A DNA stretch of 45,595 bases, taken from contig DWYB01000019.1 in the NCBI GenBank assembly GCA_019118885.1, positions 1 through 45,595 of the forward strand, in the 5' to 3' direction. The position numbers and the translations under genes were made by a program. The stretch is from Candidatus Mediterraneibacter surreyensis (lineage in GTDB: Bacteria > Bacillota > Clostridia > Lachnospirales > Lachnospiraceae). Positions 10,566-35,545 of the stretch are shown here, one piece after another (within the stretch, counting starts at the first letter, position 1; each line of letters starts with the position of its first letter). The notes beneath the pieces are model-generated. The model worked only from the letters and a program-made list of their open reading frames with translations, searched no databases and had not been told where the DNA came from.

Positions 10566-10704
10566 AATCTGAATTTTGCTGCGGATCCTTGCAGCACGAA
10601 TAAAGAAATATGACCCTCCGGGGCAGTTTCCTCCCCGTTTTTCTGACACATGCTTTCCCTCAAAAGCCTGTGGTCCGGCAGGTGATCCCTGCTGTGTAAG
10701 ACGC

Positions 10705-10733
10705 ATTATAAACGGCGGATCCTGTTTTGTCCA
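10705..10733 (-). promoter_or_regulatory. Strong promoter for the cpaE-cpaF operon
   Basis: TGGACA -35 (10728-10733), exact 17-bp spacer, TATAAT -10 (10705-10710) on the minus strand. It is embedded in an inverted repeat (10713-10729 with 10737-10754) that may also act as the terminator of the upstream bofA gene. The leader to the cpaE start would be about 130 nt. Confidence 0.65.
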
Positions 10734-10769
10734 TAGCAAAATCAAGATCCGCCGATTTTTGTAAAAAGC

Positions 10770-10964
10770 TCACAAAATCTGATAGCACATAATCCCGTAA
10801 AGCAGCCCGACCCCAGGAATCCCAAGGGTTCCGGATGTCAAAAAGGATACTGCGTTCATGCCTACATTAATTGAAGAATCAGGTGGGATCACGTACTGGT
10901 TGATAAAGAAGATCAGCGCCATACCAATGGCTGCACGTATAAAAAAATTGACAACTGCCGTCAT
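10770..10964 (-). CDS. bofA: BofA-family pro-sigma-K processing inhibitor
   Basis: 64-aa integral membrane protein (69 aa if the in-frame TTG at 10979 is used; ATG 10964 has GGGAAAG upstream). It has two hydrophobic segments, and the family signature GMNAVSFLTSGTLGIPGVGL is clear in the second half. In Bacillus, BofA holds back the SpoIVFB protease in the mother-cell outer forespore membrane until sigma-K is needed. In Clostridia its role is less certain, but its presence indicates a spore-forming lineage. It stands alone between a DUF4173 membrane protein and the pilus operon. Confidence 0.85.
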   Translation of the reverse strand: MTAVVNFFIRAAIGMALIFFINQYVIPPDSSINVGMNAVSFLTSGTLGIPGVGLLYGIMCYQIL

Positions 10965-11070
10965 AAACTTCTTTCCCAAATCCTACCATTCCTTTCACGG
11001 GATATGCAGGCTGCACCAGCAATGATACAGTACATTTCTTCTGATATAGTCTATTCCCGCCCCGGGATTT

Positions 11071-12585
11071 TTATTCTTCCAGGCCGAGCCATTTCTCCGC
11101 TGCTTTTCCTGCTTCTGCCCGGGAGTAATTCCATTCCCTTAAGGACGGCTCCCCCTGCTGATCCAGAATGTACCTGAAATAAGCGTCCAGGCTTCCCCTG
11201 ACTTCTGTGTCACTGATCTCATCTTTCTCCAGTTCCGCAAGAACGGGCGCCGTATCCATTGACAAGTTCATGAGATAATACACATCGGTTTCCGAACCTT
11301 CCCGCGCGCAGCTGATATTATACTCTGCGATAAACGTGTCCGGCCTGCTAAAAGAAAACAGGATATAGCATACAGATACCACTGCCGTGATATACCTGAA
11401 CAGCCCGAAATCTCTTCTGTAAATGCTGTATATCACTCCAAAAAAGATGATCATGAGCACTGCCAGGAACCAGAGCACAAGCACGCGCAGAAAAGTAAGG
11501 TAATATTCAGACACATACAGGATCATCCGATACGCCGCGGATACGATTATGATACATGTACACGCGGATACCACGGTAAGGATTCCTTTCAGGATCCTGT
11601 TTTCATCAAATATCATCTGGCAGATCAGGACCGCCGCAAAATTGATCAGGCTCACGGCAAGAAGCTGCCAGAATCCCTGATGCGCATATTGTGAATAAGT
11701 CACCCCTTCCGGAAGTCCTGAATCCAGTCTCAGAAAAAGGAACAGGATCTGGATCCCTGAATAAACCACATACACTGCAGCCATGATGCCTGCAAACGTG
11801 ATCCCCGCCACGGGGTCTGTCTTCCCCTGCTTCTTTTCCCCCTTTCCGCCAAGATTCATGCGGAAAAGCCCTGCAAAAAACGCATAGATAAATACAAGTC
11901 CAAAGAGAAATGTAAACACGATCCCCAGGATATTCCACACATCTATTTTCTCCAGCAGGATGAAAGGATTTAAAATGTCAAAAAAACTGTTGAAAATGTG
12001 TGAAAAGATCTGGTCCGACGCCATTAAAAGCGGAAGTACGACTGCCAGCACGAGGACCGCTGCCAGTATCCCGAACAATACAGATCTGATCTCTTTTCTT
12101 TTTATCCACATGACCGCGGACTTATTTTCGGGATTATCCTCCTCTTTTTTCCTCTTTTCCACGCTTCTGTGGAAAATCTCCCCGACCGACAGTATCCATG
12201 TGCCTGCCATTACAAAAAAGTTCTTTACATATTCTGCAAATCCCCATTCCTGATCTTTATAGATCTGATGCGCCATGGACATCATGTAAAGGAGCAGGAT
12301 CCCCACACAGTTAAAGAAATGAAAAAATATACTGTCTGTCAGGACTGTGGCTGTCCCCAAAAGAAGGATCCCTGCAAAATACCTTATTGTCCCTTTCTGA
12401 AACCGGATCCCTGCCTTCTGAAGGAACATAACGGAAAACCCGAGAGAAACTGCCGCGATCACTGGAAATGTGATCCCGGACATATTTTTGTACAGGCAGA
12501 AAGTAAATACAACTGCATAGATCAGGCTCATCATAAGAAACCATCTGCGCTCTTCTCTCATCCGCTGAATAAAAATATTATCCAT
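11071..12585 (-). CDS. DUF4153/DUF4173 family polytopic membrane protein
   Basis: 504-aa membrane protein with roughly eleven to thirteen hydrophobic segments, starting at residue 15. The family hallmark is present: the Y-A-x-x-GFWQLLAVSLINF segment near residue 300. A soluble C-terminal tail (about 100 aa, EYNISCAREGSETDVYYLMNLS onward) follows the last membrane span and fits DUF4173 proteins. Function is unknown. Its ATG overlaps the end of the small XRE regulator by 8 nt, so the two are translationally coupled and belong to one unit with the DUF2975 gene upstream. It could be a membrane sensor or stress component controlled by that regulator. Confidence 0.8.
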   Translation of the reverse strand: MDNIFIQRMREERRWFLMMSLIYAVVFTFCLYKNMSGITFPVIAAVSLGFSVMFLQKAGIRFQKGTIRYFAGILLLGTATVLTDSIFFHFFNCVGILLLYMMSMAHQIYKDQEWGFAEYVKNFFVMAGTWILSVGEIFHRSVEKRKKEEDNPENKSAVMWIKRKEIRSVLFGILAAVLVLAVVLPLLMASDQIFSHIFNSFFDILNPFILLEKIDVWNILGIVFTFLFGLVFIYAFFAGLFRMNLGGKGEKKQGKTDPVAGITFAGIMAAVYVVYSGIQILFLFLRLDSGLPEGVTYSQYAHQGFWQLLAVSLINFAAVLICQMIFDENRILKGILTVVSACTCIIIVSAAYRMILYVSEYYLTFLRVLVLWFLAVLMIIFFGVIYSIYRRDFGLFRYITAVVSVCYILFSFSRPDTFIAEYNISCAREGSETDVYYLMNLSMDTAPVLAELEKDEISDTEVRGSLDAYFRYILDQQGEPSLREWNYSRAEAGKAAEKWLGLEE

Positions 12586-12796
12586 CCTCTTCCTCCTTCA
12601 CATATTCTAAAATGTCTCCGGGCTGGCAGTCCAGAGCCCTGCATATCGCATCCAGGGTAGTAAATCTCACAGCTTTTGCCTTGTTATTCTTTAATATAGA
12701 AAGATTCGCCATTGTAATATCCACTTTGTTTGCAAGTTCCGTAACACTGATCTTGCGTTTTGCCATCATAACATCCAAGTTCACAACGATCGCCAT
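12578..12796 (-). CDS. Small XRE (Cro/CI-type, YozG-like) regulator
   Basis: 72-aa helix-turn-helix protein that is almost only the DNA-binding domain: MAKRKISVTELANKVDITMANLSILKNNKAKAVRFTTLDAICRALDCQPGDILEY. Recognition helix residues lie around TMANLSILKN. The combination of a YozG-type regulator directly after a DUF2975 membrane protein is common in Firmicutes, and the pair is thought to act together. GGGGGACATGAG gives a ribosome site just before the ATG. It most likely binds the AT-rich dyads at the promoter near 13,304-13,370. Its 3' end overlaps the DUF4173 gene. Confidence 0.88.
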   Translation of the reverse strand: MAIVVNLDVMMAKRKISVTELANKVDITMANLSILKNNKAKAVRFTTLDAICRALDCQPGDILEYVKEEEDG

Positions 12797-12808
12797 CTCA
12801 TGTCCCCC

Positions 12809-13261
12809 TTATATTGTCAGATCATTTTCTTCTTTATACTTTATCGCTTCTGAGAAGACCAGGCTCAGCACATGGCTGAACAGGCCTGCAATAAAGAAAG
12901 TAAGCACAATGATAAAAGTTGCCGGTGTGGGAAGCAGGAACAGTTTTATAAAAAACAGGACTGTGATCAGAAATGCCGCTGCCTCCATGATCCTCAGGCT
13001 TTTTGTATTTACATCTGAAAAGCAGTTTCTTCCTATAACAGTGCCGATCATTTTTCTGAGCTGATAAACGATCACAAGACCACAAATGGCGGACATCAGG
13101 AATATGAACAGCATGGAAATATAGTGCGCCTCCAATTCTTCTGAATAATACTCCCCGGCCACTTTCAGTGTAAACGGCAGCGAAGCTGCCACCAGGATAC
13201 CTGTACAGAACATAAAATTCAAAAGATATTTTGTAAATAAAATAATTCCATTTCCCTTCAT
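12809..13261 (-). CDS. DUF2975 family membrane protein
   Basis: 150-aa protein with four hydrophobic segments (about 8-28, 45-65, 90-110, 114-137) and a short charged tail. The RKMIGTVIGRNCFSDVNTKSLRIMEAAAF loop matches DUF2975 proteins, which almost always sit next to a small XRE regulator as here (12 nt gap). AAAGGAGATG precedes the ATG. Function is unknown; a membrane partner that controls the regulator is a reasonable guess. First gene of the three-gene unit. Confidence 0.85.
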   Translation of the reverse strand: MKGNGIILFTKYLLNFMFCTGILVAASLPFTLKVAGEYYSEELEAHYISMLFIFLMSAICGLVIVYQLRKMIGTVIGRNCFSDVNTKSLRIMEAAAFLITVLFFIKLFLLPTPATFIIVLTFFIAGLFSHVLSLVFSEAIKYKEENDLTI

Positions 13262-13303
13262 AATAACATCTCCTTTATTATTTTCATGCTTTGATCTGAC
13301 CGT

Positions 13304-13333
13304 ATTATAAAGCGCTCATATATTATATGTCAA
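13304..13333 (-). promoter_or_regulatory. Promoter of the DUF2975/XRE/DUF4173 unit with operator-like dyads
   Basis: Perfect TTGACA (13328-13333) and TATAAT (13304-13309) with an 18-bp spacer. The spacer holds the near-palindrome CATATAATATATG, and a related CATATTATAT motif occurs about 40 bp upstream. Both are candidate binding sites for the small XRE regulator. Confidence 0.7.
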
Positions 13334-13386
13334 TATGTTTTTATTGTTTTTCGATAAATATAATATGTTATTCAATAATTCAAAAA

Positions 13387-13429
13387 CAAAAAAACACCTA
13401 TACCCAAAATCGGTACAGATGTTTTTTTG
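13387..13429. terminator. Terminator downstream of gyrA
   Basis: A stem of about 11 bp with two G-U pairs (ACATCTGTACC with its partner), flanked by T-runs on both strands. It ends gyrA transcription; it may also work in the other direction. Confidence 0.7.
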
Positions 13430-13501
13430 TTTCTTATGTTGTTATTAAATTCCTACACTTTTGAAATAAAATAATTTCTTTTATATATTTTATTATTTAT
13501 T

Positions 13502-15997
13502 TTATTTTTCTTCTATTTCTTCTGAAATTTCTATGTTTTCTCCATCAATTTCAGCAGAAGCTTTTCGAACTTTTGCCACACTTGCTACTTTTTCATGGTC
13601 AGGTAAATTAATCAGTTTCACACCAGAAGTTATCCTTCCGTACTGAGAAATATCAGAGCACTTCATGCGGATCACGATTCCTTCTGTGTTAATGATCATG
13701 ATCTCGCTGTCTTCATCCACAGCTTTCATTCCCACTACATTTCCGGTCTTCTCAGTGATCTTATAGCACTTGACGCCTTTTCCGCCGCGGTTCTGGGTGG
13801 TAAACTCATCCATGCCTGTGCGCTTGCCCATTCCCTTTTCAGAGACAATGAGCATATCTTTTCCCTGGCTGCTCATCTGCATACCGATCACGACATCATT
13901 GTCTCCCAGGTTCATGCCGCGCACTCCCATGGATACCCTTCCGGTAGATCGCACGTCTGTCTCGTGGAACCGGATGCACTGTCCGTATTTTGTCACGAGC
14001 AGGATATCCTGCTGATCATCCGTTACCTTCACTTCGATCAGTCTGTCATCCTCTCTGAGGACGATCGCAGCCAGCCCTGTTTTTCTCACATTTGCATATT
14101 CCTTGATCGGGGTTTTCTTCACAAGTCCCTTTTCCGTTGCCATGAAGAGGTATTTTCCTTCTTCATATTCATAGATCGGGATCATTGCTGTGATCTTCTC
14201 CTCCGGCATGAGCTGGAGCAGGTTTATGATCGCAGTTCCCCGCGCTGTCCTTCCCGCCTCAGGGATCTCATATCCTTTCAGGCGGTATACCCTTCCTGTA
14301 TTCGTAAAGAACATGATATAGTGATGCGTTGTTGTCACAAACAATTCACGGATATAATCATCTTCCAGAGTCTGCATGCCCTTGATGCCTTTGCCTCCTC
14401 GTTTCTGGCTGCTGAAGGTATCCATGCTCATCCTCTTGATGTATCCCAGGTTTGTCATGGTAATGACCACATTTTCTCTCGGGATCAGGTCCTCCATCGA
14501 GATATCGAACTCATCATACCCGATGTGTGTCCTTCTCTCATCCCCGTATTTTTCAGAGATAACGAGGATTTCTTTGCGGATCACTCCCAGGAGAAGCTTC
14601 TTGTCCGCGAGGATCGCTTTATACTCCTCGATCTTTTTCATAAGCTCTGCGTACTCTGCTTCCAGCTTTTCTCTTTCCAGACCTGTCAGAGCTCTCAGAC
14701 GCATGTCAACGATCGCCTGTGACTGCGCGTCGGAAAGTTCGAAGCGCTCCATCAACTCCGCTTTCGCGATCTGGACGGTCTTTGATCCGCGGATGATCCG
14801 GATCACTTCGTCTATATTGTCCAGGGCGATGAGCAGGCCTTTTAAGATATGGGCGCGCTCTTCCGCCTTGTTCAGGTCATACTTTGTCCTTCTTGTGACT
14901 ACCTCTTCCTGGTGCTTCAGATAATATTTCAGCATATCCAGGATATTCATGACCTTTGGCTCATTATTCACAAGCGCCAGCATGATCACTCCGAATGTAT
15001 CCTGGAGCTGGGTATGCTTATAGAGCTGGTTGAGGATCACATTGGGATTGACGTCGCGGCGCAGCTCGATGCAGATCCGCATCCCCTCACGGCTGGACTG
15101 GTCGCTCAGATCCGTGATCCCGTCTACTTTTTTATCTTTCACAAGCTCTGCGATCTTCTCGATCAGCCTTGCCTTATTTACCATGAACGGAAGCTCTGTC
15201 ACGATGATCCTGTTCTTGCCGTTCTGCATCGGCTCGATGTTAGTGACCGCACGGACTCTGATCTTGCCCCGCCCTGTGCGGTAAGCTTCCTCGATCCCTC
15301 TTGTGCCGAGGATCTCAGCTCCTGTCGGGAAATCCGGTCCTTTGATGATCTTTAGGATATCTTCGATCGTAGTCTCCCCGTTCTCATCAATCTGATCGTC
15401 AATGATCTTTACTACCGCGTTGATCACTTCTCTCAGATTGTGCGGCGGGATATTCGTCGCCATACCGACTGCGATACCGGATGTACCATTCACAAGGAGA
15501 TTCGGAAATCTGGACGGAAGGACGGTCGGTTCCTTCTCCGTCTCATCAAAGTTCGGCGTGAAATCAACGGTATCTTTATTGATATCCGCTGTCATTTCCA
15601 TGGAGATCTTACTCAGGCGCGCCTCGGTGTAACGCATGGCCGCGGCCCCGTCCCCGTCTACGGACCCGAAGTTTCCGTGCCCGTCTACGAGCGGATACCT
15701 GGTGGACCACTCCTGGGCCAGATTGACCAGGGCGCCGTAGATAGAGCTGTCGCCATGCGGATGGTATTTACCCATTGTATCACCGACGATACGCGCACAT
15801 TTACGGTGCGGTTTGTCCGGCCCGTTGTTCAGCTCGATCATAGAGTAGAGGATCCTTCTCTGCACAGGCTTTAACCCGTCCCGCACATCCGGGAGGGCGC
15901 GGGAAGCGATAACGCTCATCGCGTAGTCAATGTAGGAAGTCTCCATTGTTTTCTTCAGGTCGACCTCATGGACTTTATCAAAAATATTATCTTCCAT
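13502..15997 (-). CDS. gyrA: DNA gyrase subunit A
   Basis: 831-aa breakage-reunion subunit of DNA gyrase. The catalytic tyrosine is Y123 ([12 protein letters not shown]). The quinolone-determining region reads [14 protein letters not shown]84 corresponds to E. coli S83 (sensitive type), but G88 occupies the place of E. coli D87. The C-terminal beta-pinwheel begins near residue 510 and includes the GyrA box (QKRGGKG), needed for negative supercoiling. Length is normal. AAGGAGATAAACA precedes the ATG. It lies 228 bp downstream of gyrB, and the gap contains a row of hairpins. Confidence 0.98.
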
Positions 15998-16019
15998 TGT
16001 TTATCTCCTTTTTATGAAA

Positions 16020-16225
16020 TAAATATCCGGCTGGGCTCCGGGATCTCTGGCTGCTTCCGCTCGGGATCTCCGAAAGCTTCCGCTCCGGGATCCAGTTCAA
16101 AAACCTTCGGTTTTTTCACTGGGTTGGCATTTCCAATGCCAACCCTCACATCCGCTGCGAAGAAGAAATCCGAGCGAGCTCGATTTCTTCCTCACACCGG
16201 CTGCGATCCCGTCGCTGGTAAATCG
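16020..16225. repeat. Row of hairpins and direct repeats between gyrB and gyrA
   Basis: Contents: (a) two direct copies of GCTTCCGCTC(C)GGGATC (about 16053-16068 and 16076-16092) plus a related CTCCGGGATCTC at 16036; (b) stem AAAAACC/GGTTTTT at 16099-16115 with a TTC loop; (c) a perfect 11-bp stem GGGTTGGCATT/AATGCCAACCC at 16121-16145 with a 3-nt loop; (d) a 13-bp stem, one bulge, at 16162-16190. This is far more structure than a gyrase intergenic spacer normally shows. It may be an interspersed repeat or an mRNA processing/stability element between the two genes. Confidence 0.65.
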
Positions 16226-19260
<3,035 letters not shown>

Positions 19261-19311
19261 AACTTTCCCATCTAATCTATTTTACACTTTTTCCGGCATT
19301 TTTTCAACCGA

Positions 19312-19524
19312 TTATCCGATGCGGAGCTCTTTTCCGTCATATAAGACGACATCGCCGCTGTGCAGCTTTCTCCCTCTCCGGGTCTCTGTCTCGCCGTTTA
19401 CCATGACCAGACCGTCCTGGATGACTTCCTTTGCCTCAGCCCCTGTCTCTGCCATGCCGGCTGCTTTTAAAACCTGTCCGAGCCGGATGAAATCTTCTCC
19501 GGCTCTCAACTGAAACAGTTCCAT
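19312..19524 (-). CDS. yaaA: S4-domain RNA-binding protein (YaaA/RlbA family)
   Basis: 70-aa protein consisting of one S4 domain: FIRLGQVLKAAGMAETGAEAKEVIQDGLVMVNGETETRRGRKLHSGDVV. The start at 19524 is preferred because AAGGAGAG ends 5-6 nt upstream; an in-frame GTG at 19542 would place the ribosome site inside the gene. It lies between dnaN and recF, where this family is found in many Firmicutes. It is thought to bind RNA, possibly in ribosome assembly. Confidence 0.9.
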   Translation of the reverse strand: MELFQLRAGEDFIRLGQVLKAAGMAETGAEAKEVIQDGLVMVNGETETRRGRKLHSGDVVLYDGKELRIG

Positions 19525-19550
19525 TTTTCTCTCCTTTGCCACTTCTGTGC

Positions 19551-20660
19551 CTATACTGCTGCGTTAAAATTCACGGGGAGGATCAGGTAAATATAGCTCT
19601 GTTCCTCATCCTTGATGAAGCACGGCGCCTTTGCGTTCATGAAATAAAGATCCACTTCTTCATCGTCGATCACACGCAGCGCGTCGATCAGGAATTTCGG
19701 ATTAAATCCGATCAAAAGGTCCTTGCCTTCTTTCATGCACATGATCTCTTCGTCCATGGATCCGATCTGTGATCTGATCTTAAATTCCATAGACTCATCC
19801 CTGATATCAATGATGATCGGCTTCTTGTCTCCTTCTTTGATGAGAAGGGTCGCACGGTCGATACAGTCAAGGAGCTCCCTTTTATTGATCCGTACCTTTG
19901 TCTCATAATCGCTGGAAAGCATCTGGTCGATCCTGAAATACTCTCCTTCGATCAGCCTGGATACGACGACCGTCCTGTCAAATTCAAATACAATATGGTT
20001 CCTTGTAAAGGAGATATCCACGTCCGCTTCCGCCTCTCCGCCGATGATCTTGCTGATCTCCTGGAGCGTCTTGCCGGGCACGATCACTTTCTTCGGAGAG
20101 TAGGAGTCTTTCAGCTCGATCTTGCGGATCGAGATCCTGTGCCCGTCAAGGGAAACGACCTTCAGGATATTGTCGTCGATCTCAAAGAGCTCTCCTGTCA
20201 TCATTTTATTCGTATCGCTGTCCGCGATGGAGAAGATCGTCTGGCGGATCACTTCTTTCAGCGTAAATTCGGAGACCGTGATAAAGTCATCCTTCTCTAC
20301 GGCCGGAAGATAGGAGAAATCATCTCCAGGCTGGGCCGCGATATTGAACTTCGCCTTTTCACATGTGATAAGAGCCTGGCTCTCACCCTGGGTCTCGATC
20401 ACGATCTCGCTGTCCGGGAGCTTTCTTACGATTTCCGAAAAGATCCTCGCGTTCAGGGCGATGATCCCCCTCTCTATGATCTCACCGTCAATGGAAGTTT
20501 CGATTCCAAGCTCCATGTCGTTCGCAGTCAGTTTGATGATATCCATGGAAGCATCGATCAGGATGCACTCCAGTATGGGCATCGTCGTTTTTGACGGGAC
20601 TGCTTTTGATACAATGCTGACGCCTTTTGCCAGGTTTGATTTTGTACATATGATCTTCAT
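19551..20660 (-). CDS. dnaN: DNA polymerase III beta sliding clamp
   Basis: 369-aa ring-forming processivity clamp with three repeated domains. The family start (MKIICTKSNLAKGVSIVSKAV), the central LPDSEIVIETQ and the final ILPVN segment before the C-terminal end are all present. AAAGGAG precedes the ATG. It lies 340 bp downstream of dnaA and 26 nt upstream of the S4-domain gene. Complete and of normal length. Confidence 0.98.
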   Translation of the reverse strand: MKIICTKSNLAKGVSIVSKAVPSKTTMPILECILIDASMDIIKLTANDMELGIETSIDGEIIERGIIALNARIFSEIVRKLPDSEIVIETQGESQALITCEKAKFNIAAQPGDDFSYLPAVEKDDFITVSEFTLKEVIRQTIFSIADSDTNKMMTGELFEIDDNILKVVSLDGHRISIRKIELKDSYSPKKVIVPGKTLQEISKIIGGEAEADVDISFTRNHIVFEFDRTVVVSRLIEGEYFRIDQMLSSDYETKVRINKRELLDCIDRATLLIKEGDKKPIIIDIRDESMEFKIRSQIGSMDEEIMCMKEGKDLLIGFNPKFLIDALRVIDDEEVDLYFMNAKAPCFIKDEEQSYIYLILPVNFNAAV

Positions 20661-26017: not shown

Positions 26018-27430
26018 ATGAAAAAAGAAACGATAGCTGCGATCTCCACAGGAATGACGAATTCCGGGATCGGGATCGTCCGCATCAGCGGGGAAGACGC
26101 ATTTGCCGTTGCGGACAGAGTATACAGGGGAAAACAGAGACTGTCAGATGCAGAAAGCCATACGATCCACTACGGTCATATCATTGACAGCGGGGAAACT
26201 GTGGATGAAGTACTCGTCATGGCGATGAGGTCTCCCCGCACTTTTACAGGGGAAGATACCGTAGAGATCAACTGCCACGGCGGGACCTTTGTCGTCAGGA
26301 GAGTGCTGGAAACAGTGCTGAAAAACGGCGCCCGCCCGGCAGAGCCCGGGGAGTTCACAAAGAGGGCATTCTTAAACGGTAAGATGGATCTGTCCCAGGC
26401 AGAGGCGGTCATCGATGTGATAAATTCGGAAAATGAGTATGCGCTGCAAAGCTCTATAAGTCAATTAAAAGGAAGTATAAAAAACAAAATAATTGATATA
26501 AGAAATAAAATAATTTATCACACTGCGTTTATAGAATCAGCCCTTGACGATCCGGAGCATATAGAAATCGATGGATACGCGGATACTTTACTGGAAGCAG
26601 CAGAAGAGATCATACACGATCTGGAAGAAATGATCAGCTCCGCTGATAATGGGAGAGTGATCCGAGAAGGGATCAACACGGTGATCCTCGGGAAGCCAAA
26701 TGCAGGAAAATCGTCCCTTCTGAATGTGCTGGCAGGGCATGAGAGAGCGATCGTAACAGACATAGAGGGGACAACAAGAGACATCCTTGAGGAACAGATA
26801 CGTCTCGGGGATCTGAGCCTGAATGTGATCGATACGGCGGGGATCCGGCAGACAGAGGATGTGATCGAAAAGATCGGGGTCGACAGGGCGATGGAATACG
26901 CGGGAAAGGCGGACCTTATCATCTATGTCGTGGACGCATCGAGGGAGCTTGATGAAAATGACGAGAAGATCCTGCCTCTGATCAAAGATAAAAACACGGT
27001 GATCCTTCTGAATAAGTCGGACCTGGATACAGTAGTCACTGAAGAGATGATAAAAAAGAAGGCAGGTTCTATATGCTCCGGCTTCCCGGAAGAGGGAGAA
27101 ACCAAAAAGGAAATCCCGGTCATATCCATTTCCGCAAAAGAAGAAAAAGGAATTGAAAAGTTAGAAAAGAAATTAAAAGAAATGTTTTTAAACGGAATAG
27201 TTTCTTTTAACAACCAGATATGTATCTCAAATGTGCGGCAGAAAAATGCTCTGGCAGACGCAGAGGAAAGTATGAAAAAGGTAGTTGAGAGTATCAATGC
27301 AGGTATGCCGGAGGACTTTTATTCCATTGACCTGATGGATGCTTATGAGGCGCTTGGAAGTATTACGGGAGAATCAGTAGGAGAAGATTTGGTAAATGAA
27401 ATATTCAGCAAATTCTGTATGGGAAAATAG
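26018..27430 (+). CDS. mnmE: tRNA modification GTPase MnmE (TrmE)
   Basis: 470-aa GTPase that, with MnmG, makes carboxymethylaminomethyl-uridine at wobble position 34 of certain tRNAs. An N-terminal tetrahydrofolate-binding domain (about 1-118) is followed by helices and an inserted G domain: GKPNAGKS (225-232), GTTRD (251-255), DTAG near 270 and NKSD near 330. The C-terminal tail FCMGK holds the catalytic cysteine (FCIGK in most homologues). Its end overlaps the mnmG start by 35 nt, so the two partners are translationally coupled. Confidence 0.97.
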
Positions 27431-29288
27431 TGACAGGTATGATATCGCAGTGATCGGGGCAGGACATGCCGGATGCGAGGCGGCGCTGGCTGCAGCAAGG
27501 CTTGGGTTTCGCACTGTCATGTTTACTGTGAGCGTGGACAGCATCGCGCTCATGCCGTGCAATCCGAATATCGGGGGCAGTTCGAAAGGACATCTCGTCA
27601 GAGAAGTAGACGCCCTGGGAGGCGAGATGGGAAAGGTCATTGACCGGACGTTTATCCAGTCGAAAATGCTCAATAAGTCAAAGGGGCCGGCGGTCCATTC
27701 TCTGAGGGCGCAGGCGGATAAGGCGGATTACAGCAGGGCCATGAGGCAGGTACTTGAAGAACAGGAAAATCTGGACATCCGTCAGATGGAGGTCACGGAT
27801 ATCCTTACAGAGGACGGAAAAGTGACAGGAGTGCAGACCTATTCGGGATGTATCTATCCATGCAAAGCGGTCGTGCTCTGTACGGGGACCTATTTAAGGG
27901 CAAGGTGCATTTACGGCGATGTGAGCATGCACACAGGACCGAACGGTCTCCAGAGCGCGGATCATCTGACGGAGTGCCTGAAAAATCTCGGGGTAAAGAT
28001 GTACCGGTTTAAGACGGGGACTCCGGCGAGGATCGCGAGAAACTCTATCGATTTCAGTAAGATGGAAGAGCAGAAGGGGGATGAAAGAGTTGTTCCCTTC
28101 TCCTTTACAACTGACCCGGAAAGCGTCCAGATCGACCAGGCGTCCTGCTGGCTTACTTATACAAATGAGAAAACGCATGAGATCATAAGGGAGAATCTGG
28201 ACCGGTCTCCGCTTTTTTCCGGTGCGATCGAGGGGACAGGGCCAAGATACTGCCCATCGATCGAAGACAAGGTCGTAAAATTCCCTGATAAAAACAGGCA
28301 TCAGGTATTTATCGAGCCGGAAGGACGGCATACAAATGAAATGTATGTGGGAGGGATGTCCAGTTCCCTTCCGGAAGACGTGCAGTATAAGATGTACCGG
28401 AGCGTGCCCGGCCTGGAGAATGCGAAGATCGTCAGGAATGCCTATGCGATCGAGTATGACTGCATTGACGCAAGGCAGCTTAAGAGCACTCTTGAGTTTA
28501 AAAATATCGAAGGGCTTTTCAGCGGAGGACAGTTTAACGGAAGCTCCGGTTACGAGGAGGCAGCGGCCCAGGGACTGATCGCGGGGATCAATGCCGCGCG
28601 GAAACTGCAGGGAAAAGACGGGATCGTCATTGACCGTTCCCAGGGGTATATCGGCGTCCTGATCGACGACCTTGTGACAAAGGAAAGCCATGAGCCGTAC
28701 CGGATGATGACTTCAAGGGCGGAATACCGGCTTCTCCTGAGACAGGACAACGCGGATACCCGCCTGACCCGCATCGGATATGAGGTGGGGCTGATCAGTG
28801 AGGAGCGGTATCAGAGACTGCTCGAAAAAGAGCGGATGATCGAGGAAGAGCGGAAACGTGTCGAGCATACAAATATCGGTACTTCCCCGAAAGTCAGGGA
28901 AGTGCTGGAAAAATACGGAAGCACGCCCCTGAGCTCCGGGGCAACGCTTGCCGAGCTGATCCGCCGGCCGGAACTTTCTTATGAGAAGCTCCGGGAGATC
29001 GATGAGGAGAGGCCGGAACTCCCTCATGACGTACAGGAACAGGTGGACATCAATATTAAATATGACGGCTACATCAAACGGCAGATGCGCCAGGTAGAGC
29101 AGTTTAAAAAGCTGGAGAATAAAAAAATACCGGAAGATATCAATTACGATGAAATACAGAGCCTTCGGATCGAAGCAAAGCAGAAACTGGATCAGATCCG
29201 GCCCGCTTCCATCGGACAGGCGTCCAGGATATCAGGTGTATCCCCGGCGGATATATCAGTGCTGCTTGTGTATCTGAAAATGTCATAA
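27396..29288 (+). CDS. mnmG: tRNA uridine-5-carboxymethylaminomethyl modification enzyme MnmG (GidA)
   Basis: 630-aa FAD-dependent partner of MnmE. The dinucleotide-binding motif is [17 protein letters not shown] (about 21-37). Family signatures [43 protein letters not shown] and [20 protein letters not shown] are present, and the C-terminal helical MnmE/tRNA-binding domain is complete. No later in-frame ATG exists before the FAD motif, so the start inside mnmE at 27396 is accepted, with GGAG about 12 nt upstream. Confidence 0.97.
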
Positions 29289-29383
29289 AAGTACAAGCCG
29301 TAAACAGGGAGATATATCCCCAAAACGCAGACTTGTGCAAAGAGTCAGAATCTTAGTAATGATAAAAAGTCAGGATTGGAAAT

Positions 29384-30091
29384 ATGGATAAATTTGCAGA
29401 AGAATTAAAAAAGACAGGGATTACTCTTACAGAGAGACAGAGAGAACAGTTTGACCGATATTATGAACTTCTCGTCGAGCGCAATAAGGTCATGAACCTT
29501 ACAGGGATCACGGATTATGACGAAGTGAATCTAAAGCATTTCACGGATAGTCTTACAATTGTAAGATTAAAAGATATGTCAAAGATATCTACTCTCATCG
29601 ATGTCGGGACAGGCGCTGGATTTCCGGGAATACCGATAAAGATCGCGTTCCCGCATATAGAAATAGTCCTGCTTGATTCGCTGAATAAAAGACTGAAATT
29701 TCTTGATGATGTGATCCGGGAGCTTGATCTGGAAGAAATAAGGACACTGCACGGCAGGGCAGAAGATTACGCAAAAAAAGCAGAATACAGGGAAAAATTC
29801 GATCTGTGCGTGTCCAGGGCAGTGGCAAATCTTTCCACACTTAGCGAGTATTGTCTCCCGTTTGTAAAAAAAGGCGGTTCATTCGTTTCTTATAAAAGCA
29901 GTGGATCAGATGAGGAGATAAAAACGTCAGAAAACGCGGTCAACATACTCGGAGGGAAAATAGAAAAGATAGAAAAATTCATGCTGCCGGATACAGATAT
30001 CGGGCGGGCACTCGTACAGATCGATAAGGTAAAGAATACGCCGGGAAAATATCCAAGAAAAGCAGGAGTGCCGGCGAAAGAACCGCTTTAA
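29384..30091 (+). CDS. rsmG: 16S rRNA (guanine527-N7)-methyltransferase RsmG (GidB)
   Basis: 235-aa S-adenosylmethionine methyltransferase that methylates G527 of 16S rRNA; loss gives low-level streptomycin resistance in several bacteria. The cofactor loop is DVGTGAGFPGIPIKIAFP (about 73-90); FDLCVSRAVANLSTLSEYCLPFVKKGG follows. GGAAAT lies close to the ATG. It ends the mnmE-mnmG-rsmG run. Downstream is a long gene-free block with giant inverted repeats rather than parA directly. Confidence 0.96.
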   Translation: MDKFAEELKKTGITLTERQREQFDRYYELLVERNKVMNLTGITDYDEVNLKHFTDSLTIVRLKDMSKISTLIDVGTGAGFPGIPIKIAFPHIEIVLLDSLNKRLKFLDDVIRELDLEEIRTLHGRAEDYAKKAEYREKFDLCVSRAVANLSTLSEYCLPFVKKGGSFVSYKSSGSDEEIKTSENAVNILGGKIEKIEKFMLPDTDIGRALVQIDKVKNTPGKYPRKAGVPAKEPL

Positions 30092-30208
30092 GCTGTATTT
30101 GTGGGGAGCCATCAGTGATGTAAATGGTCCGAAAACAGTGAAGCACAGGTATCGAGGGCGTATTCAGCGCGGGGATATGGGCGGCTTCGGCTCCGGGGCT
30201 CCAGGGCC
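30092..30208. other. Gene-free leader to the inverted-repeat block
   Basis: No gene and no clear terminator for rsmG. A GC-rich hairpin GCGGC (30181-30185) / GCCGC (30206-30210) encloses CGGCTCCGGGGCTCCAG, which loosely recalls the CTCCGGGATCTC repeats between gyrB and gyrA. Confidence 0.4.
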
Positions 30209-30327
30209 GCAAAAACTAAGAAATCCGGGATTATGCTAAAAACAGAGATTAGCAGGGAGCAACTGACGTTGCCTCAGACAAGCCCCCTGCTGATCTCAAC
30301 GCATAGTCCCGGATTTCAAGTTTTTGC
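30209..30327. repeat. Long imperfect inverted repeat IR-1
   Basis: The arms begin GCAAAAACT at 30209 and end with its complement at 30327. The outer stem pairs 30211-30236 (GAAATCCGGGATTATGC) with 30301-30325, and an inner stem pairs GAGATTAGCAGGGAGC (30245-30260) with GCCCCCTGCTGATCTC at 30282-30297. The central loop carries its own CTGA/TCAG hairpin. The whole is one hairpin of about 119 nt. A short perfect hairpin GGCACAG/CTGTGCC follows at 30345-30362. Confidence 0.8.
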
Positions 30328-30461
30328 AAGAATACAACAAGAGAGGCACAGCTCGCTGTGCCAAATCGAACGGCTAACTCCCTTCCGGAAGTCCAACCTG
30401 AGCTGCCGCTTATTTTAAATTTCTGTTTCTCCGATGAAGCTCCCCTTTCGCTTAACTTTCG

Positions 30462-30812
30462 AAATCCTGCATTTGTCCGCGGGGACCTTCCGATCGGATG
30501 CGCGCAGAAAACCGTTCCCATTTGATGTGCCTTTTGCGGCGGACGGGGATATGGTGACGGTGACTTGGAGTAATCTGTTGGAAAGACTTAAAGGGAGAAA
30601 GCGTGGCGTTAATTGTCCGGCGGATGCCTGAGGCGGAGCTGAATCTTCCGCCGGACAATTGCTTTTAGCCATGTTTTCTCCCTTTTACGTCTTTACCAGA
30701 TTACGGAACCGGAACCTGAGCCATATCCCCGTCCGACGCAAAAACCTTCTGCAACAAACCAACGGTTTTCGGACGCTTCGCCAATCAGTCAGCTCCCTAC
30801 AATTACAGATTT
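30462..30812. repeat. Very long imperfect inverted repeat IR-2
   Basis: Two arms of about 165 nt face each other around a 22-nt loop (30625-30646). Perfect blocks: AATTGTCCGGCGGA (30611-30624) with 30647-30660; GTAATCTG (30570-30577) with 30697-30704; GGACGGGGATATGG (30541-30554) with 30721-30734; GAAAACCGTT (30507-30516) with 30761-30770. AAAGGGAGAAA also recurs in both arms, and the outermost homology is near 30462-30476 / 30799-30812. Between blocks the arms have diverged with small indels, so they look like two old copies of one sequence in opposite orientation. It ends right at the stop codon of the hydrolase gene. Confidence 0.85.
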
Positions 30813-31775
30813 CTACTCTTCTTCGGAAAAGAGTATCTGTATCTGTTCTATGAATTCCTTCGACTTTTCCACATGTGGAAGCTGTTTTGTCTCATCTATC
30901 CCCACTATTTCAATAGAAGGAAGCTGATTTTGGTATTGATTTGCTGATAATGTATTTTCCGGGTTGGAATTTCCGACTATAATAAAAATACTGTTATTTA
31001 ACTTATTTAGGCAGCACAAGATGTTTGCGTTTGTAAATCTTGATTTTTTGCAGGCATAAAGATATTTTGAATGAGCTTTATGCTTGTGGGAAGATTCAAA
31101 GCAGGTTAAAATATCTTTCTCATCTACCTTATTATGATCATAAAAATATGAAGAAACAAATTTTTGAGATATTGTTTTCTTATTTACACTCATATTATAG
31201 ATAAAAGTGCCGATTATAGGTGCTGATAAAAGATATTTAATTGTCTTTGTACGCTTTGTAGGTATTTTGGCAAGTGATACGAGATTCTGCGGGTTGATCA
31301 TAGCCACTTTATTAATGATCGTATCGTCATTAGAGCATGCCATCAGTACAAAAGGCGATGAATCTCCGGAAACGATGACATCAGTCTTTTTACCTATAAC
31401 GTGTTTGATAAAATCAGTTATCAGCTGTACATATAAAAAGTTCGTATAAGTCAGGATAGGATGATCTGAGCACCCGCATCCTAAAAGATCAAGAGAGTAA
31501 ACCGTATATGTTTTTGCCAGCGATGACTCTATTTTATTCCATTCATGAGAAGAAGAACATACATCAAGGTTGTGTACAAGGAGAAGAGGAGAGCCGGACC
31601 CTTTTTTCTTATAAGCAATTTTTCCAAATCTCCATTCATAATATTCGTAAGTCTCTTCATTAAGTCTGTTGTCAGCTGTTGCAATATAATTAAAAAGTCG
31701 GTTTACAACATGCATTGTACCGAGTGCTGTCCCGATAAATACAGCTGCTAAACTGATATTTTTCTTCCAACTCAC
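30813..31775 (-). CDS. Membrane-anchored alpha/beta hydrolase-like protein
   Basis: 320-aa protein with an N-terminal hydrophobic anchor (about 8-30) followed by an alpha/beta hydrolase fold: LLLVHNLDVCSSSHEW (oxyanion region), SLDLLGCGCSDHP, the nucleophile elbow VSGDSSPFV (S139) and a late LPHVE (H301). The elbow is G-D-S-S-P rather than G-x-S-x-G, and I do not see the usual acidic residue (the GNSNPEN stretch is in its place). The substrate is unknown. The start is GTG at 31775 with GGGTGG upstream. It lies on the opposite strand between rsmG and parA and is more AT-rich than its neighbours, so it may be an insertion in this conserved block. Confidence 0.75.
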   Translation of the reverse strand: MSWKKNISLAAVFIGTALGTMHVVNRLFNYIATADNRLNEETYEYYEWRFGKIAYKKKGSGSPLLLVHNLDVCSSSHEWNKIESSLAKTYTVYSLDLLGCGCSDHPILTYTNFLYVQLITDFIKHVIGKKTDVIVSGDSSPFVLMACSNDDTIINKVAMINPQNLVSLAKIPTKRTKTIKYLLSAPIIGTFIYNMSVNKKTISQKFVSSYFYDHNKVDEKDILTCFESSHKHKAHSKYLYACKKSRFTNANILCCLNKLNNSIFIIVGNSNPENTLSANQYQNQLPSIEIVGIDETKQLPHVEKSKEFIEQIQILFSEEE

Positions 31776-31846
31776 AAGTATTCACCACCCTTTTTTGTTT
31801 TCTATTATTATACTACATGGGTAAATTCAATTCAAGAATAGCTAAA

Positions 31847-31862
31847 TGTTTCACGTGAAACA
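31847..31862. promoter_or_regulatory. parS site 1
   Basis: Perfect 16-bp ParB-binding palindrome TGTTTCACGTGAAACA, upstream of parA. ParB loads here, spreads on DNA in a CTP-dependent way, and recruits SMC. Confidence 0.97.
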
Positions 31863-31885
31863 TTAATGAAAAATAAATAAAATAA

Positions 31886-31901
31886 TGTTTCACGTGAAAC
31901 A
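31886..31901. promoter_or_regulatory. parS site 2
   Basis: Second perfect TGTTTCACGTGAAACA, 23 bp after the first, directly upstream of the parA promoter, so ParB binding could also affect parAB expression. Confidence 0.97.
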
Positions 31902-31926
31902 TTTTATAGATTAATAAATTGAAAAG

Positions 31927-31935
31927 TGTTATAAT
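31927..31935 (+). promoter_or_regulatory. parAB promoter (extended -10)
   Basis: TGTTATAAT, an extended -10 element, 26 bp after parS site 2. No good -35 is present at 17 bp. Confidence 0.5.
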
Positions 31936-31975
31936 GAATAAGTATCTGAAAAAGAGGTTTTGTGAGGAGGCAAAA

Positions 31976-32743
31976 ATGGGGAGAATCATTGCAATTGCCA
32001 ATCAAAAAGGAGGAGTAGGAAAGACGACTACTGCCATTAATCTTTCTGCTTCTCTTGCGAGTATGAATAAAAAAGTCCTTGCGCTTGACATGGATCCTCA
32101 GGGAAATATGACGAGCGGACTGGGCGTTGATAAGGACGAGGCAGAAAAAACAGTTTATGACCTTATTATAGGTAATGCTGGGATTGAAGAATGCATTTGC
32201 AGAGATGCTTTGGAAAATCTCGATGTACTTCCTTCGAATATTAATCTCTCCGCCGCAGAAATTGAATTGATAGGCGTTGAAAATAAGGAATATATTTTAA
32301 GAAGTGAAGTTGAAAAAGTAAAAAATGATTATGATTTTATTGTAATAGACTGTCCGCCGGCGTTAAGTATGCTGACTATAAATGCAATGACTACCGCTGA
32401 CTCGGTGATCGTACCGATACAGTGCGAATACTATGCACTGGAGGGATTGAGCCAGCTGATACATACAATAGAACTTGTACAGGAAAGATTGAATCCTGAG
32501 CTCGAAATAGAAGGCGTTGTGTTTACTATGTATGATGCCAGAACGAATCTTTCATTACAGGTAGTGGAAAATGTCAAAGATAATCTTAATCAGAATATCT
32601 ATAAGACAATTATCCCGAGAAATATCAGACTGGCTGAAGCGCCAAGCTATGGCATGCCGATCAATCTCTATGACCCAAGATCAACAGGGGCGGAAAGCTA
32701 TATGCTGTTAGCGGAAGAAGTTATTCATAAAGGAGAAGAATAG
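31976..32743 (+). CDS. parA: Chromosome partitioning ATPase ParA (Soj)
   Basis: 255-aa Walker-type ATPase that positions origins with ParB and, as Soj, can regulate DnaA. The deviant Walker A KGGVGKTT is at 11-18, DMDPQGNMTSGLG gives the A' motif and VIDCPPALS is Walker B. The ATG at 31976 is chosen because GAGGAGG lies 5 nt upstream; the ORF runs 19 codons further up but without a ribosome site. parB follows 2 nt after the stop. Confidence 0.96.
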   Translation: MGRIIAIANQKGGVGKTTTAINLSASLASMNKKVLALDMDPQGNMTSGLGVDKDEAEKTVYDLIIGNAGIEECICRDALENLDVLPSNINLSAAEIELIGVENKEYILRSEVEKVKNDYDFIVIDCPPALSMLTINAMTTADSVIVPIQCEYYALEGLSQLIHTIELVQERLNPELEIEGVVFTMYDARTNLSLQVVENVKDNLNQNIYKTIIPRNIRLAEAPSYGMPINLYDPRSTGAESYMLLAEEVIHKGEE

Positions 32744-32745
32744 TT

Positions 32746-33657
32746 ATGGCGGCAAAAAGAAATGGATTGGGAAAGGGATTGGACAGTCTTATCCCGGATA
32801 AAAAGGTGAAACCTGCAGTTTCAGATAAAACAGAAGGAAAAGAAAAAAAAGAAGAGTCCAGTAAAAGCGGTGAAATCCTGGTGAAGATCAATGAAGTTGA
32901 ACCGAACCGTGAACAGCCGAGAAAAGATTTCGATGAAGATTCTCTTATGGAATTAGCTGACTCTATCAAGCAGTTTGGGATTCTCCAGCCTCTGCTTGTA
33001 CAGAAGAAAAAAGATTATTATGAAATCATTGCCGGAGAGCGAAGGTGGAGAGCAGCAAAAATCGCAGGGATAAAAGAGGTTCCTATTATCGTTAAGAATT
33101 ATACGGATCAGGAAATTGTGGAAATCTCTCTTATCGAAAATATCCAGCGGGAGAACCTTAATCCGATCGAAGAGGCGATGGCATACAAGAGACTTCTTGA
33201 AGAATTCAACCTGAAACAGGATGAAGTTGCCGAGAGAGTTTCTAAGAGCAGGACTGCTGTTACAAACTCAATGAGGCTTTTAAAATTAAGCTCCAGAGTA
33301 CAACAGATGATTGTAGATGATATGATCAGTACCGGACATGCACGGGCTTTGCTCGCAATCGATGATGAAGAACAGCAGTATATGCTTGCAAATAAGATCT
33401 TCGATGAAAAACTGAGTGTCAGGGAAACGGAAAAGCTTGTTAAAGCATTGAAAAATCCTAAAAAAGAAATAAAGAAAACGGTGGTCGAACACACGTTTGT
33501 GTACGAGAATCTGGAAGAGCAGATGAAAAATATCATCGGAACAAAAGTAAGTGTGAATCCAAAAGCGAATGGAAAGGGTAAAATAGAGATAGAATATTAT
33601 TCGGAAGAAGAATTGGAACGTATCTATGACCTGATCATGTCGATCCATGCGAAATAG
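32746..33657 (+). CDS. parB: Chromosome partitioning protein ParB (Spo0J)
   Basis: 303-aa CTP-dependent DNA clamp that binds parS. A basic N-terminus (RNGLGKGLDSLIPDKK) serves to stimulate ParA. The CTP-binding GERRWRA box is at 97-103, ENIQRENLNP at 131-140 and the parS-reading helix-turn-helix around 155-180. A C-terminal dimerisation region (KGKIEIEYYSEEELERI) is complete. It is co-transcribed with parA, and its two target sites lie just upstream. Confidence 0.96.
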   Translation: MAAKRNGLGKGLDSLIPDKKVKPAVSDKTEGKEKKEESSKSGEILVKINEVEPNREQPRKDFDEDSLMELADSIKQFGILQPLLVQKKKDYYEIIAGERRWRAAKIAGIKEVPIIVKNYTDQEIVEISLIENIQRENLNPIEEAMAYKRLLEEFNLKQDEVAERVSKSRTAVTNSMRLLKLSSRVQQMIVDDMISTGHARALLAIDDEEQQYMLANKIFDEKLSVRETEKLVKALKNPKKEIKKTVVEHTFVYENLEEQMKNIIGTKVSVNPKANGKGKIEIEYYSEEELERIYDLIMSIHAK

Positions 33658-33709
33658 TCAGGTCAGTAAAACCGGGGAGTTGTATGATTAAAAGGAGATG
33701 TAGGAAAGA

Positions 33710-34237
33710 ATGGATGGGATATTGGGCAGTTTAGGGATCGACCCGTTTTATATTTTTGTGGTCCTTTTTATAATGCAGATCATACTTATCATTCTGCTCG
33801 TACTGCTGGGTGATAAATATAAAAGACTGAAGAAAAGTTATTCCGTTTTTATGCGCGGCAAGAATGGAAAAAGTATCGAACAAACAATATTTAATAAATT
33901 TGAAGAACTGGAAGAAATCTCGGACCTGGTCAAGATCAATGAAAAGGAAATTGAAGATCTGAGAAAAAAGGTGGAATCCCATTATCAGAAAGCTGGGATC
34001 GTAAGATATGATGCATTCCATGAAATGGGAGGAAATCTGAGTTTCGCCCTGACTATGCTGGATGAAAATGATAATGGATGGATCTTAAACGCCATGCACA
34101 GCCGGGAAGGCTGCTATACTTATATCAAAGAGATCGTAAGAGGAGAAAGCTATATCGAACTTTCAGAAGAGGAAAAGCAGTGCCTTGAAAAAACGATCTA
34201 TCAGGAAGAATACGATATAAAAGACATGGAAAAATAA
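33710..34237 (+). CDS. DUF4446 family membrane-anchored protein
   Basis: 175-aa protein of unknown function. An N-terminal membrane anchor (about 12-34) is followed by a helical, coiled-coil-like stretch (EELEEISDLVKINEKEIEDLRKKV) and a compact domain with GIVRYDAFHEMGGNLSFALTMLDENDNGWIL, the DUF4446 signature. This family is regularly found just after parB in Clostridia, so a link to the nucleoid or cell cycle is possible but unproven. AAGGAGATG lies upstream of the start. Confidence 0.88.
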   Translation: MDGILGSLGIDPFYIFVVLFIMQIILIILLVLLGDKYKRLKKSYSVFMRGKNGKSIEQTIFNKFEELEEISDLVKINEKEIEDLRKKVESHYQKAGIVRYDAFHEMGGNLSFALTMLDENDNGWILNAMHSREGCYTYIKEIVRGESYIELSEEEKQCLEKTIYQEEYDIKDMEK

Positions 34238-34258
34238 AAGAAATGAGAGGATAAAAAA

Positions 34259-35545
34259 GTGTTAGACATTAAATTTTTAAGAACAAATCCGGATGTAGTA
34301 AAACAGAATATCAAAAATAAATTCCAGGATGAAAAGCTTCCTCTGGTGGACGAAGTGATCGGACTGGATAAGAGAAACCGTGAGATCAAGCAGGAAGTGG
34401 AGGCTCTCCGCGCTGAAAAGAATAAAGCGTCCAAACAGATCGGGGCCATGATGGCTCAGAAAAAGTTTGAAGAGGCGGAAGCACTCAAGAAAAAAGTGGC
34501 AGAGAGCGCAGGACGTATCGATGAATTGTCCACAGAGGAAAAAGATGTAGAGGAAAAGATCAAAAAGATCATGATGACGATTCCGAACATCATCGATCCG
34601 TCTGTGCCGATCGGAAAAGATGACAGTGAAAATGTCGAGCTGGAAAGATTCGGAGAGCCGGTGGTACCGGACTTTGAGATCCCGTATCACACAGAGATTA
34701 TGGAGTCCTTTAACGGGATCGACCTTGACAGTGCGAGAAAGGTCGCGGGAAACGGATTTTATTATCTCATGGGAGATATCGCAAGACTGCATTCGGCTGT
34801 GATCGCATATGCAAGAGATTTTATGATCAACAGAGGATTTACCTACTGTGTACCCCCGTTCATGATCCGCAGCAATGTAGTGACAGGGGTTATGAGCTTT
34901 GCAGAGATGGATGCCATGATGTACAAGATCGAGGGAGAAGACCTCTATCTGATCGGTACGAGCGAGCATTCTATGATCGGCAAATTTATCAATACACAGC
35001 TTACGGAAGATGAGCTCCCGCAGACGCTGACCAGCTATTCACCGTGTTTCCGCAAGGAGAAAGGCGCGCATGGGATCGAAGAGAGAGGCGTATACAGGAT
35101 CCATCAGTTTGAGAAGCAGGAAATGATCGTTGTATGTAAGCCGGAAGAAAGCATGGACTGGTATGACAAGCTCTGGAAGAATACGGTAGACCTCTTCCGC
35201 TCTATGGATATCCCGGTAAGGACACTGGAGTGCTGCTCGGGAGACCTTGCGGATCTGAAAGTGAAATCCGTGGATGTGGAGGCATGGTCTCCGCGCCAGA
35301 AAAAATATTTCGAAGTGGGTAGCTGTTCGAACCTGGGAGACGCACAGGCAAGGAGACTTGGCATCCGCGTAAAAGGAGAAAACGGAAGCTATTTCGCGCA
35401 TACACTGAATAATACGGTAGTCGCTCCGCCGAGGATGCTGATCGCATTCCTTGAGAATAATCTCCAGGCGGACGGCTCTGTCAGGATACCGGAAGTGTTG
35501 AGACCGTATATGGGCGGCAATGATAAGATCGTCCCGAAAAAATAG
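34259..35545 (+). CDS. serS: Seryl-tRNA synthetase
   Basis: 428-aa class II synthetase that charges tRNA-Ser (and tRNA-Sec). The N-terminal coiled-coil arm (about 30-105) that grips the long variable arm of tRNA-Ser is clear. Catalytic motif 2 is FRKEKGAHGIEERGVYRIHQF and motif 3 is PPRMLIAFLENN. It starts with GTG at 34259; AGAGGATAAAA is upstream. Downstream of DUF4446 with 21 nt between them. Confidence 0.96.
   Translation: MLDIKFLRTNPDVVKQNIKNKFQDEKLPLVDEVIGLDKRNREIKQEVEALRAEKNKASKQIGAMMAQKKFEEAEALKKKVAESAGRIDELSTEEKDVEEKIKKIMMTIPNIIDPSVPIGKDDSENVELERFGEPVVPDFEIPYHTEIMESFNGIDLDSARKVAGNGFYYLMGDIARLHSAVIAYARDFMINRGFTYCVPPFMIRSNVVTGVMSFAEMDAMMYKIEGEDLYLIGTSEHSMIGKFINTQLTEDELPQTLTSYSPCFRKEKGAHGIEERGVYRIHQFEKQEMIVVCKPEESMDWYDKLWKNTVDLFRSMDIPVRTLECCSGDLADLKVKSVDVEAWSPRQKKYFEVGSCSNLGDAQARRLGIRVKGENGSYFAHTLNNTVVAPPRMLIAFLENNLQADGSVRIPEVLRPYMGGNDKIVPKK

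Follow-up and report, generated by a model that had tools for sequence, protein, structure and literature searches.

Our analysis concerns a repeat element of Candidatus Mediterraneibacter surreyensis, located on a 45,595-nucleotide stretch of contig DWYB01000019.1 (assembly GCA_019118885.1) whose full length we refer to as the window. The element (30090-30812) takes up the entire gap separating the stop codon of rsmG from that of a convergent gene for an alpha/beta-hydrolase-fold protein. The interval 30462-30812, presented in a preliminary description of this DNA as a giant hairpin, proved on comparison with copies elsewhere to be one unit of this larger structure. The copies are dispersed, keep their pairing and their loops, lie flush with gene ends, and have their content inverted or replaced at fixed sites. 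To judge from the aligned copies, it is the folded shape of the family, rather than its sequence, that is kept by evolution, with the loops conserved. The following features were recognized at the locus:

30090-30812, no strand assigned: the whole element (alignment with nine copies, flush ends, fold z-score)
30090-30110, plus strand: left half of the palindromic end stem, AAGCTGTATTTGTGGGGAGCC (copy alignment; a bare 43-bp palindrome of the same halves on contig C1 of Lachnoclostridium sp. An76)
30189-30348, minus strand: A-type arm, degenerate in the window (covariance model R1, 81.6 bits; inverted repeat; alignment)
30220-30236/30301-30317, minus strand: inner stem of this A-type arm (inverted repeat)
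30462-30812, plus strand: B unit, the hairpin originally reported; it opens with the end-like sequence AAATCCTGCATTTG and closes with the right end-stem half
30532-30743, plus strand: B-type arm, a long covarying hairpin (inverted repeat; pair covariation)
30559-30716, plus strand: conserved arm core, matched by model R1 at 165 bits, the sequence being part of the model's training alignment
30626-30645, plus strand: conserved tip loop GCCTGAGGCGGAGCTGAATC (CTGAG(N1-9)CGA motif)
30792-30812, plus strand: right half of the palindromic end stem, GCTCCCTACAATTACAGATTT (alignment, copy edges)
29384-30091, plus strand: rsmG (gidB), left neighbor, stop flush with the element (Pfam PF02527, E 2.4e-51)
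30813-31775, minus strand: alpha/beta-hydrolase-fold gene, convergent, stop flush with the element (Pfam PF00561, E 7.1e-06)

The AA of the rsmG stop codon TAA (30089-30091) provides the first two bases of the element, and the genes around it follow the order mnmG, rsmG, hydrolase, parA, parB. That the structure has parS for a neighbor stands, in that two perfect sites (31847-31862 and 31886-31901) are nearby, but they lie about 1 kb beyond the element and not the few hundred bases given in the preliminary description. Because of these two sites and the gene order, read against what is known of such gene orders, a position near the replication origin is suggested. The parS sites sit just before parA, and the stretch 31844-31903 matches itself with a shift.

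An inverted-repeat search of the window confirmed the long imperfect hairpin at 30462-30812. Its mirrored arms share blocks of 23 nt (30532-30554/30721-30743, 96% complementary), 18 nt (30590-30607/30668-30685, 89%) and 14 nt (30611-30624/30647-30660, 100%). Folded as RNA, the interval reaches -156.6 kcal/mol against a mean of -105.8 for shuffled sequences (z = -9.23; none of 100 shuffles did as well); its other strand folded as single-stranded DNA gives z = -8.6, and the element in its entirety z = -20.1 (20 shuffles).

Alignment of the window copy with nine copies from genome G029, together with the edges of 32 copies, shows that the copies share their ends, which are close to AAATCTGTATTTGTGGGGGAGC and to its reverse complement. 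Enclosed by these ends, a full copy has its A unit, middle stretch and B unit, the arms of A and B lying on opposite strands. Missing from the window copy are the right part of its A unit and much of the middle stretch; some copies hold an A unit or a B unit alone, and single units of about 345-370 bp stand by themselves elsewhere. The same ends are found in An76 as a bare palindrome of 43 bp that is imperfect at its central base only (C1:520341-520383), and as forms of about 56 to 125 bp. Because these short forms exist, the ends are best seen as the two halves of one small palindromic stem, with the arms nested in its loop. Family members range in length from 43 bp to about 960 bp, and their arm cores measure about 158 nt; the tip motif CTGAG(N1-9)CGA is present in 123 of 138 arms, the TGAATC of the window being a one-base variant.

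Other architectures were encountered as well. Composites of two B-type units, inverted and about 80-130 bp apart, occur at L012:13294-14046 (G000:C63; G000 being the assembly of the window) and L053:2008-2758 (G013:C102). A second type of hairpin, GGTACATAAG..stem..CTAAGTRCC, whose stems also change, lies in large elements of G020, G019, G011 and G000, at L154 ~558, L157 ~998 and L024 ~2558 (one orthologous site), L072 ~1698 and L227 ~2151; these are five of six pattern matches, the sixth resembling coding sequence. One 1.2-kb element of G011 (L068:2537-3223) holds an open reading frame of 228 amino acids beside an A-type arm; it matched no Pfam family, and a P-loop-like motif was recognized in it by eye.

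The evidence for selection on pairing comes from three alignments. In 51 arms chosen by pattern from 92 found, 21 of the 22 pairs in the two lower stems changed in a compensatory manner, and 97.9% of the cells pair compared with 75.0% after shuffling. In 26 extended B arms, 30 of 72 pairs carry changes on both sides, and 97.1% of the cells are paired (87.9% shuffled). The largest set, 138 arms of which 117 are distinct, was fitted to the model structure and leans towards it, whereas the other two were not so fitted; here, all 35 pairs are compensatory and 97.6% of the cells are paired (70.7% shuffled), a value that falls to 55-57% when the pairing partners are slid by one base. For the 117 distinct arms, covariation amounts to 0.725, against 0.231 for shuffled and at most 0.179 for slid partners.

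Conservation and pairing are distributed differently along the arm. Among 41 arms less than 90% alike, selected after 7 of the 138 rows had been left out as rich in gaps, conservation of at least 95% is reached by 28 of 90 unpaired columns, compared with 4 of 70 paired ones. On the motif strand of the same arms, 62 G-U cells face 23 A-C cells (sign test 1.4e-5, which takes the cells as independent, a condition that they do not entirely satisfy). In the 51-arm set, the lower stems show G-U to A-C ratios of 14:4 in the A rows and 45:7 in the B rows, which include one A-like arm; in the B apical stem both are equal (9:9), the apical cells of the A rows being left out of the count for pairing out of register. 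Compensatory pairing and the excess of G-U over A-C both suggest that what seems to be kept is the pairing of one folded strand, be it RNA or single-stranded DNA.

With the window's own genome as target, the 721-bp gap between the two stops returned 11 matching pieces spread over four contigs, including two in which the window copy matches its own opposite strand. Seven of 61 genomes, the window's own included, gave DNA matches: six of the same genus, and G060 with a single match of 37 bp. An exact 20-mer of the arm recurs in 70 stretches of An76 and four uncultured or Candidatus Mediterraneibacter assemblies. Full copies used as queries yielded at least 88 pieces in G029 (best 40 of 105 candidates scored) and, with another copy, at least 157 in An76 (best 40 of 80), the An76 figure referring to pieces rather than whole copies and including opposite-strand, self-like matches. 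Many of the G029 matches and three of those in G000 fall at the ends of contigs, and the family may be what breaks these assemblies. The two observations that could have spoken against the preliminary description, a lack of any homologous copy and arms drifting apart, are answered by the copies found and the pairing kept. Its ancient inverted duplication was not supported: the arms are the co-evolving strands of one hairpin unit that is present in many copies.

Model R1 recovers arms in 47 of 58 genomes of the same genus (Mediterraneibacter-type) and in none of 41 others, the best 30 candidates per genome being scored in this 99-genome search and 10 genomes reaching that number. A class-wide search found no such arms in 390 other genomes, and a family-wide search found weaker relatives in 5 of 395 other genomes; since the best 7 candidates per genome were scored in both, little weight attaches to the lack of arms beyond the genus. 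Six loci from these five genomes were inspected. Five of them, belonging to four of the genomes, are hairpins of great length whose tip is of the same type (CTGTCTGAGCGNAGCGAGTT or a variant thereof), and four of the five also fit the internal-loop pattern GCGTT / TTTTAGC. The sixth, a relative from another genus in G834 (L239:137-307, 40 bits), is a long hairpin that keeps the lower loop GTGACTTGGAG / GTGGAACCGGAAC and has a different tip of two hairpins. Plasmid, phage and viral-contig collections, in which records close to the genome of the window may be absent, gave no match to the element, the conserved 20-mer, the tip motif or two of the hairpins from outside the genus.

The genome designated G068 corresponds by sequence to Lachnoclostridium sp. 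An76 (100% over 1971 bases), and its locus L078 is the site of the window, 97.5-98.9% identical over the matching stretches. The window contig (G000:C53) agrees with An76 at 97.5-99% over the stretches compared (8702-20000 and 27291-35160). An76 flanks gave 25 matches in the window's assembly. Four lie on contigs C63 and C87, where An76-like copies are present too, and show 94-100% identity; of the remaining 21, one reaches 97% and 20 fall within 75-92%. Because its identity with An76 stands against 75-92% for 20 of these 21 matches on other contigs, the window contig is probably misbinned, which leaves the finding itself unaffected.

We analyzed the position of the elements relative to genes in 800 kb of An76, within which 20 element intervals were found. 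With minimal forms counted, an element is present at 12 of the 66 convergent junctions, 8 of the 568 tandem ones and 1 of the 65 divergent ones; compared with all other junctions (9 of 633), convergent ones are enriched with an odds ratio of 15 (p = 2.8e-8). Gene calling relied on a simple script, which makes these counts approximate; of its 705 calls, 5 lay inside elements and were removed, and the tandem interval 776120-776480 was left uncounted as it overlaps a called gene. Element ends that face a stop codon lie within 10 nt of it in 25 of 32 cases, compared with 8.6% of random intergenic points drawn in element-free gaps of at least 60 bp. The region G068:C1 1-342000 holds 2 of the 21 counted elements (binomial p 0.001 if they were uniformly spread), and at L203 (G068:C1 414390) a minus-strand gene, as called by the script, has its stop at the element end and apparently takes its C-terminus from one half of the end stem.

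The content of a given site is subject to change. One convergent gene pair was traced through 24 loci, of which three did not yield both flanks. At this site several species hold large palindromic elements that differ from one another; instead of these, at least four species have 8-18 bp and at least three 86-122 bp. Other sites are nearly empty: L169 is clean, at L170 two stops enclose the short palindrome AAATCCGGATTT, L171 has one end alone, and L172 carries an ends-only form of 76 bp. The module content at the same site also differs. In 13 flank-matched pairs of orthologous loci between assemblies, the element was inverted in nine and in the same orientation in four; the pairs use 10 reference copies with both flanks present, are neither random nor all independent, and the orientation of copies with an A unit only was taken as opposite to that of their A arm.

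In four full-length pairs with An76 (L117, L088, L112, L115), the flanks are 92-97% and the elements 80-82% identical, and the orthologous copy ranks 10th to 28th among 41-42 elements; the best matches of the An76 copies are other An76 copies (91-94%) in a comparison set rich in such copies. Where the partner consists of a single unit (four pairs), identity over the shared part is 89-93% in three pairs and 80% in the fourth despite flanks of 98-99%; the pair L120/L063 shows no element match at all. The window copy itself is 94.8% identical to that of L078.

What kind of element is this? The explanation that we favor, and to which we give about an even chance, is a giant, modular, REPIN/BOX-like non-autonomous repeat that is kept as a folded single strand and exchanged within genomes. 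The suggestion of a miniature element in the preliminary description is thereby borne out in kind, as is shown by the inverted ends. The palindromic end stem, in its smallest form a hairpin of 43 bp, sits flush behind stop codons, and one or two long arms, sometimes with a further middle stretch, nest in its loop, the A and B units of composites being opposed. One strand of each arm would be folded, as RNA or single-stranded DNA, and recognized by a putative trans-acting factor, as the conserved folding suggests. Recognition, together with recombination between copies, may spread and homogenize the arms, with the hairpins behind stops serving as tolerated or preferred landing sites. In its favor are the numerous copies, the kept pairing and loops, the excess of G-U over A-C, the exchange, inversion and differing modules at orthologous sites, the empty site and remnants, and the composite and 43-bp forms. 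Several results weigh against this explanation. The best matches of the orthologous-site partners often lie in another genome instead of their own (87-93%; one partner match of 100% is the same contig under a second name), and a family largely confined to one genus and unmatched in the phage, plasmid and viral collections searched is unusual among mobile elements. No link to a transposase emerged in a search by PF01797 only: arm-bearing genomes devoid of this Y1-transposase family exist, and no element lies within the 2.8-4 kb around five PF01797 genes. Likewise, no consistent target-site duplication was seen by eye in the 38 end-resolved copies of 40, and the exact placement at stop codons is left unexplained by the proposed mechanism. 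PF01797 occurs in 41 of the 47 genus genomes with arms and in 8 of the 11 without, and the arm-bearing genomes lacking it carry 30 (G082), 24 (G081), 20 (G035), 10 (G086), 5 (G072) and 3 (G064) arms. A RAYT/IS200 partner within the reach of PF01797 was rejected on these negative co-occurrence and neighborhood tests.

The leading rival, which we nevertheless regard as unlikely, is a gene-end RNA element functional for the host, a very large bidirectional terminator or 3'-protective structure that would separate convergent genes, its arms folding in either transcript and its copies homogenized by gene conversion. Position favors it, through the convergent enrichment and the stop-flush ends; so do the smallest form, a hairpin exactly between two stops, the large elements held by several species at one orthologous site, and the excess of G-U over A-C. 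It is weakened by mixed arm orientation, since in five single-arm elements of An76 with one upstream gene the arm is sense once and antisense four times, and by species without the element, namely those with 8-18 bp or 86-122 bp at the site followed and the 11 of 58 genus genomes devoid of any arm. Furthermore, no intrinsic terminator was predicted at the ends of the window element, the one weak site (30345-30362, minus strand; 1.5 expected) lying elsewhere. Should the arms instead be independent noncoding RNAs, separate transcripts acting in trans, for instance as protein-binding RNAs, then the RNA-like conserved loops between freely covarying stems and the tip or lower-loop motifs kept in other genera would be accounted for. 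We consider this improbable, given tens of copies per genome, an arm orientation that varies relative to the neighbors, no sigma-70-like promoter within 30000-30900 (0.7 expected in shuffles) and no gathering-score match to Rfam 15 in the element, the lone match being one tRNA elsewhere in the window; a lax-limit Rfam search of six family loci gave weak matches to microRNA models far below gathering.

An ordinary miniature inverted-repeat transposable element (MITE), derived from an insertion sequence with a DDE transposase, would have terminal inverted repeats of the kind present here, would be dispersed and, like the typical copies of this family, would lack a gene of its own. Of all readings this is the one to which we give least credence: target-site duplications were not seen by eye, no gene-carrying copy with both ends was found in the 800 kb of An76, and whole-arm covariation and conserved loops would not be expected in the interior of a MITE.

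In anatomy and behavior, the family resembles REPIN and BOX repeats, yet stands apart from both because of its size, conserved loops, nested composites, stop-flush ends and inversion, and because the link to RAYT was not found. REP sequences and REPINs are dispersed extragenic palindromes in inverted pairs that form hairpins in single-stranded DNA or mRNA and are proposed to be miniature, non-autonomous mobile DNA (PMC3116915). Our family likewise is an extragenic, many-copy inverted palindromic doublet; it differs in its range of 43 bp to about 960 bp, its arm cores of about 158 nt, its conserved internal loops and its stop-flush position, and whereas REPINs go with RAYT transposases, no such association was found here (PMC3116915). 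BOX elements measure 67-637 bp, are modular with extensive secondary structure, over-represented between convergent genes and nearly confined to a few species, and the pneumococcal SPRITE repeats lie close to the 3' ends of genes (PMC3049150). Compared by description only with BOX, RUP and SPRITE, our family is also modular, folded, enriched between convergent genes and nearly confined to a genus, and is distinguished by inverted composite units, stop-flush ends and frequent inversion at orthologous sites (PMC3049150). The "mobile/repeat sequence candidate" motif MRSC-65-2 shares one long, strongly covarying stem, often in dozens of copies per genome, and is found in diverse phyla with a conserved UYCCGG repeat (PMC11109978). 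Again by description, our family may differ from it, with 39 of the 138 arms lacking TYCCGG on both strands; 99 contain at least one, and 60 two or more, on either strand. The large, ornate predicted folds of GOLLD, ROOL and OLE are similar in kind (PMC12286853), but the element of the window has no gathering-score match in Rfam. A possible likeness to the attC sites of integrons was also considered. A survey of top-ranked titles and abstract openings in the open-licence literature retrieved no description of this family under the terms used.

We tentatively raise one further possibility, which we judge somewhat less than even: a new class of gene-end element, in which a stop-flush hairpin would act as a socket for long arms that can be exchanged and inverted; each arm would be a module of structured RNA or single-stranded DNA whose loops are conserved, and a dedicated putative factor would maintain the arms in Lachnospiraceae. 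If true, this would amount either to a mobile system that targets gene ends or to a genus-wide regulatory system operating there. Should our account of the family be right, the genus would carry, in each genome, tens of folded elements of up to about a kilobase behind stop codons, variable in content and orientation and nearly perfect in their base pairing. Such a genus would offer a natural experiment on mobility that recognizes structure, and on the events that take place at the 3' ends of convergent genes.
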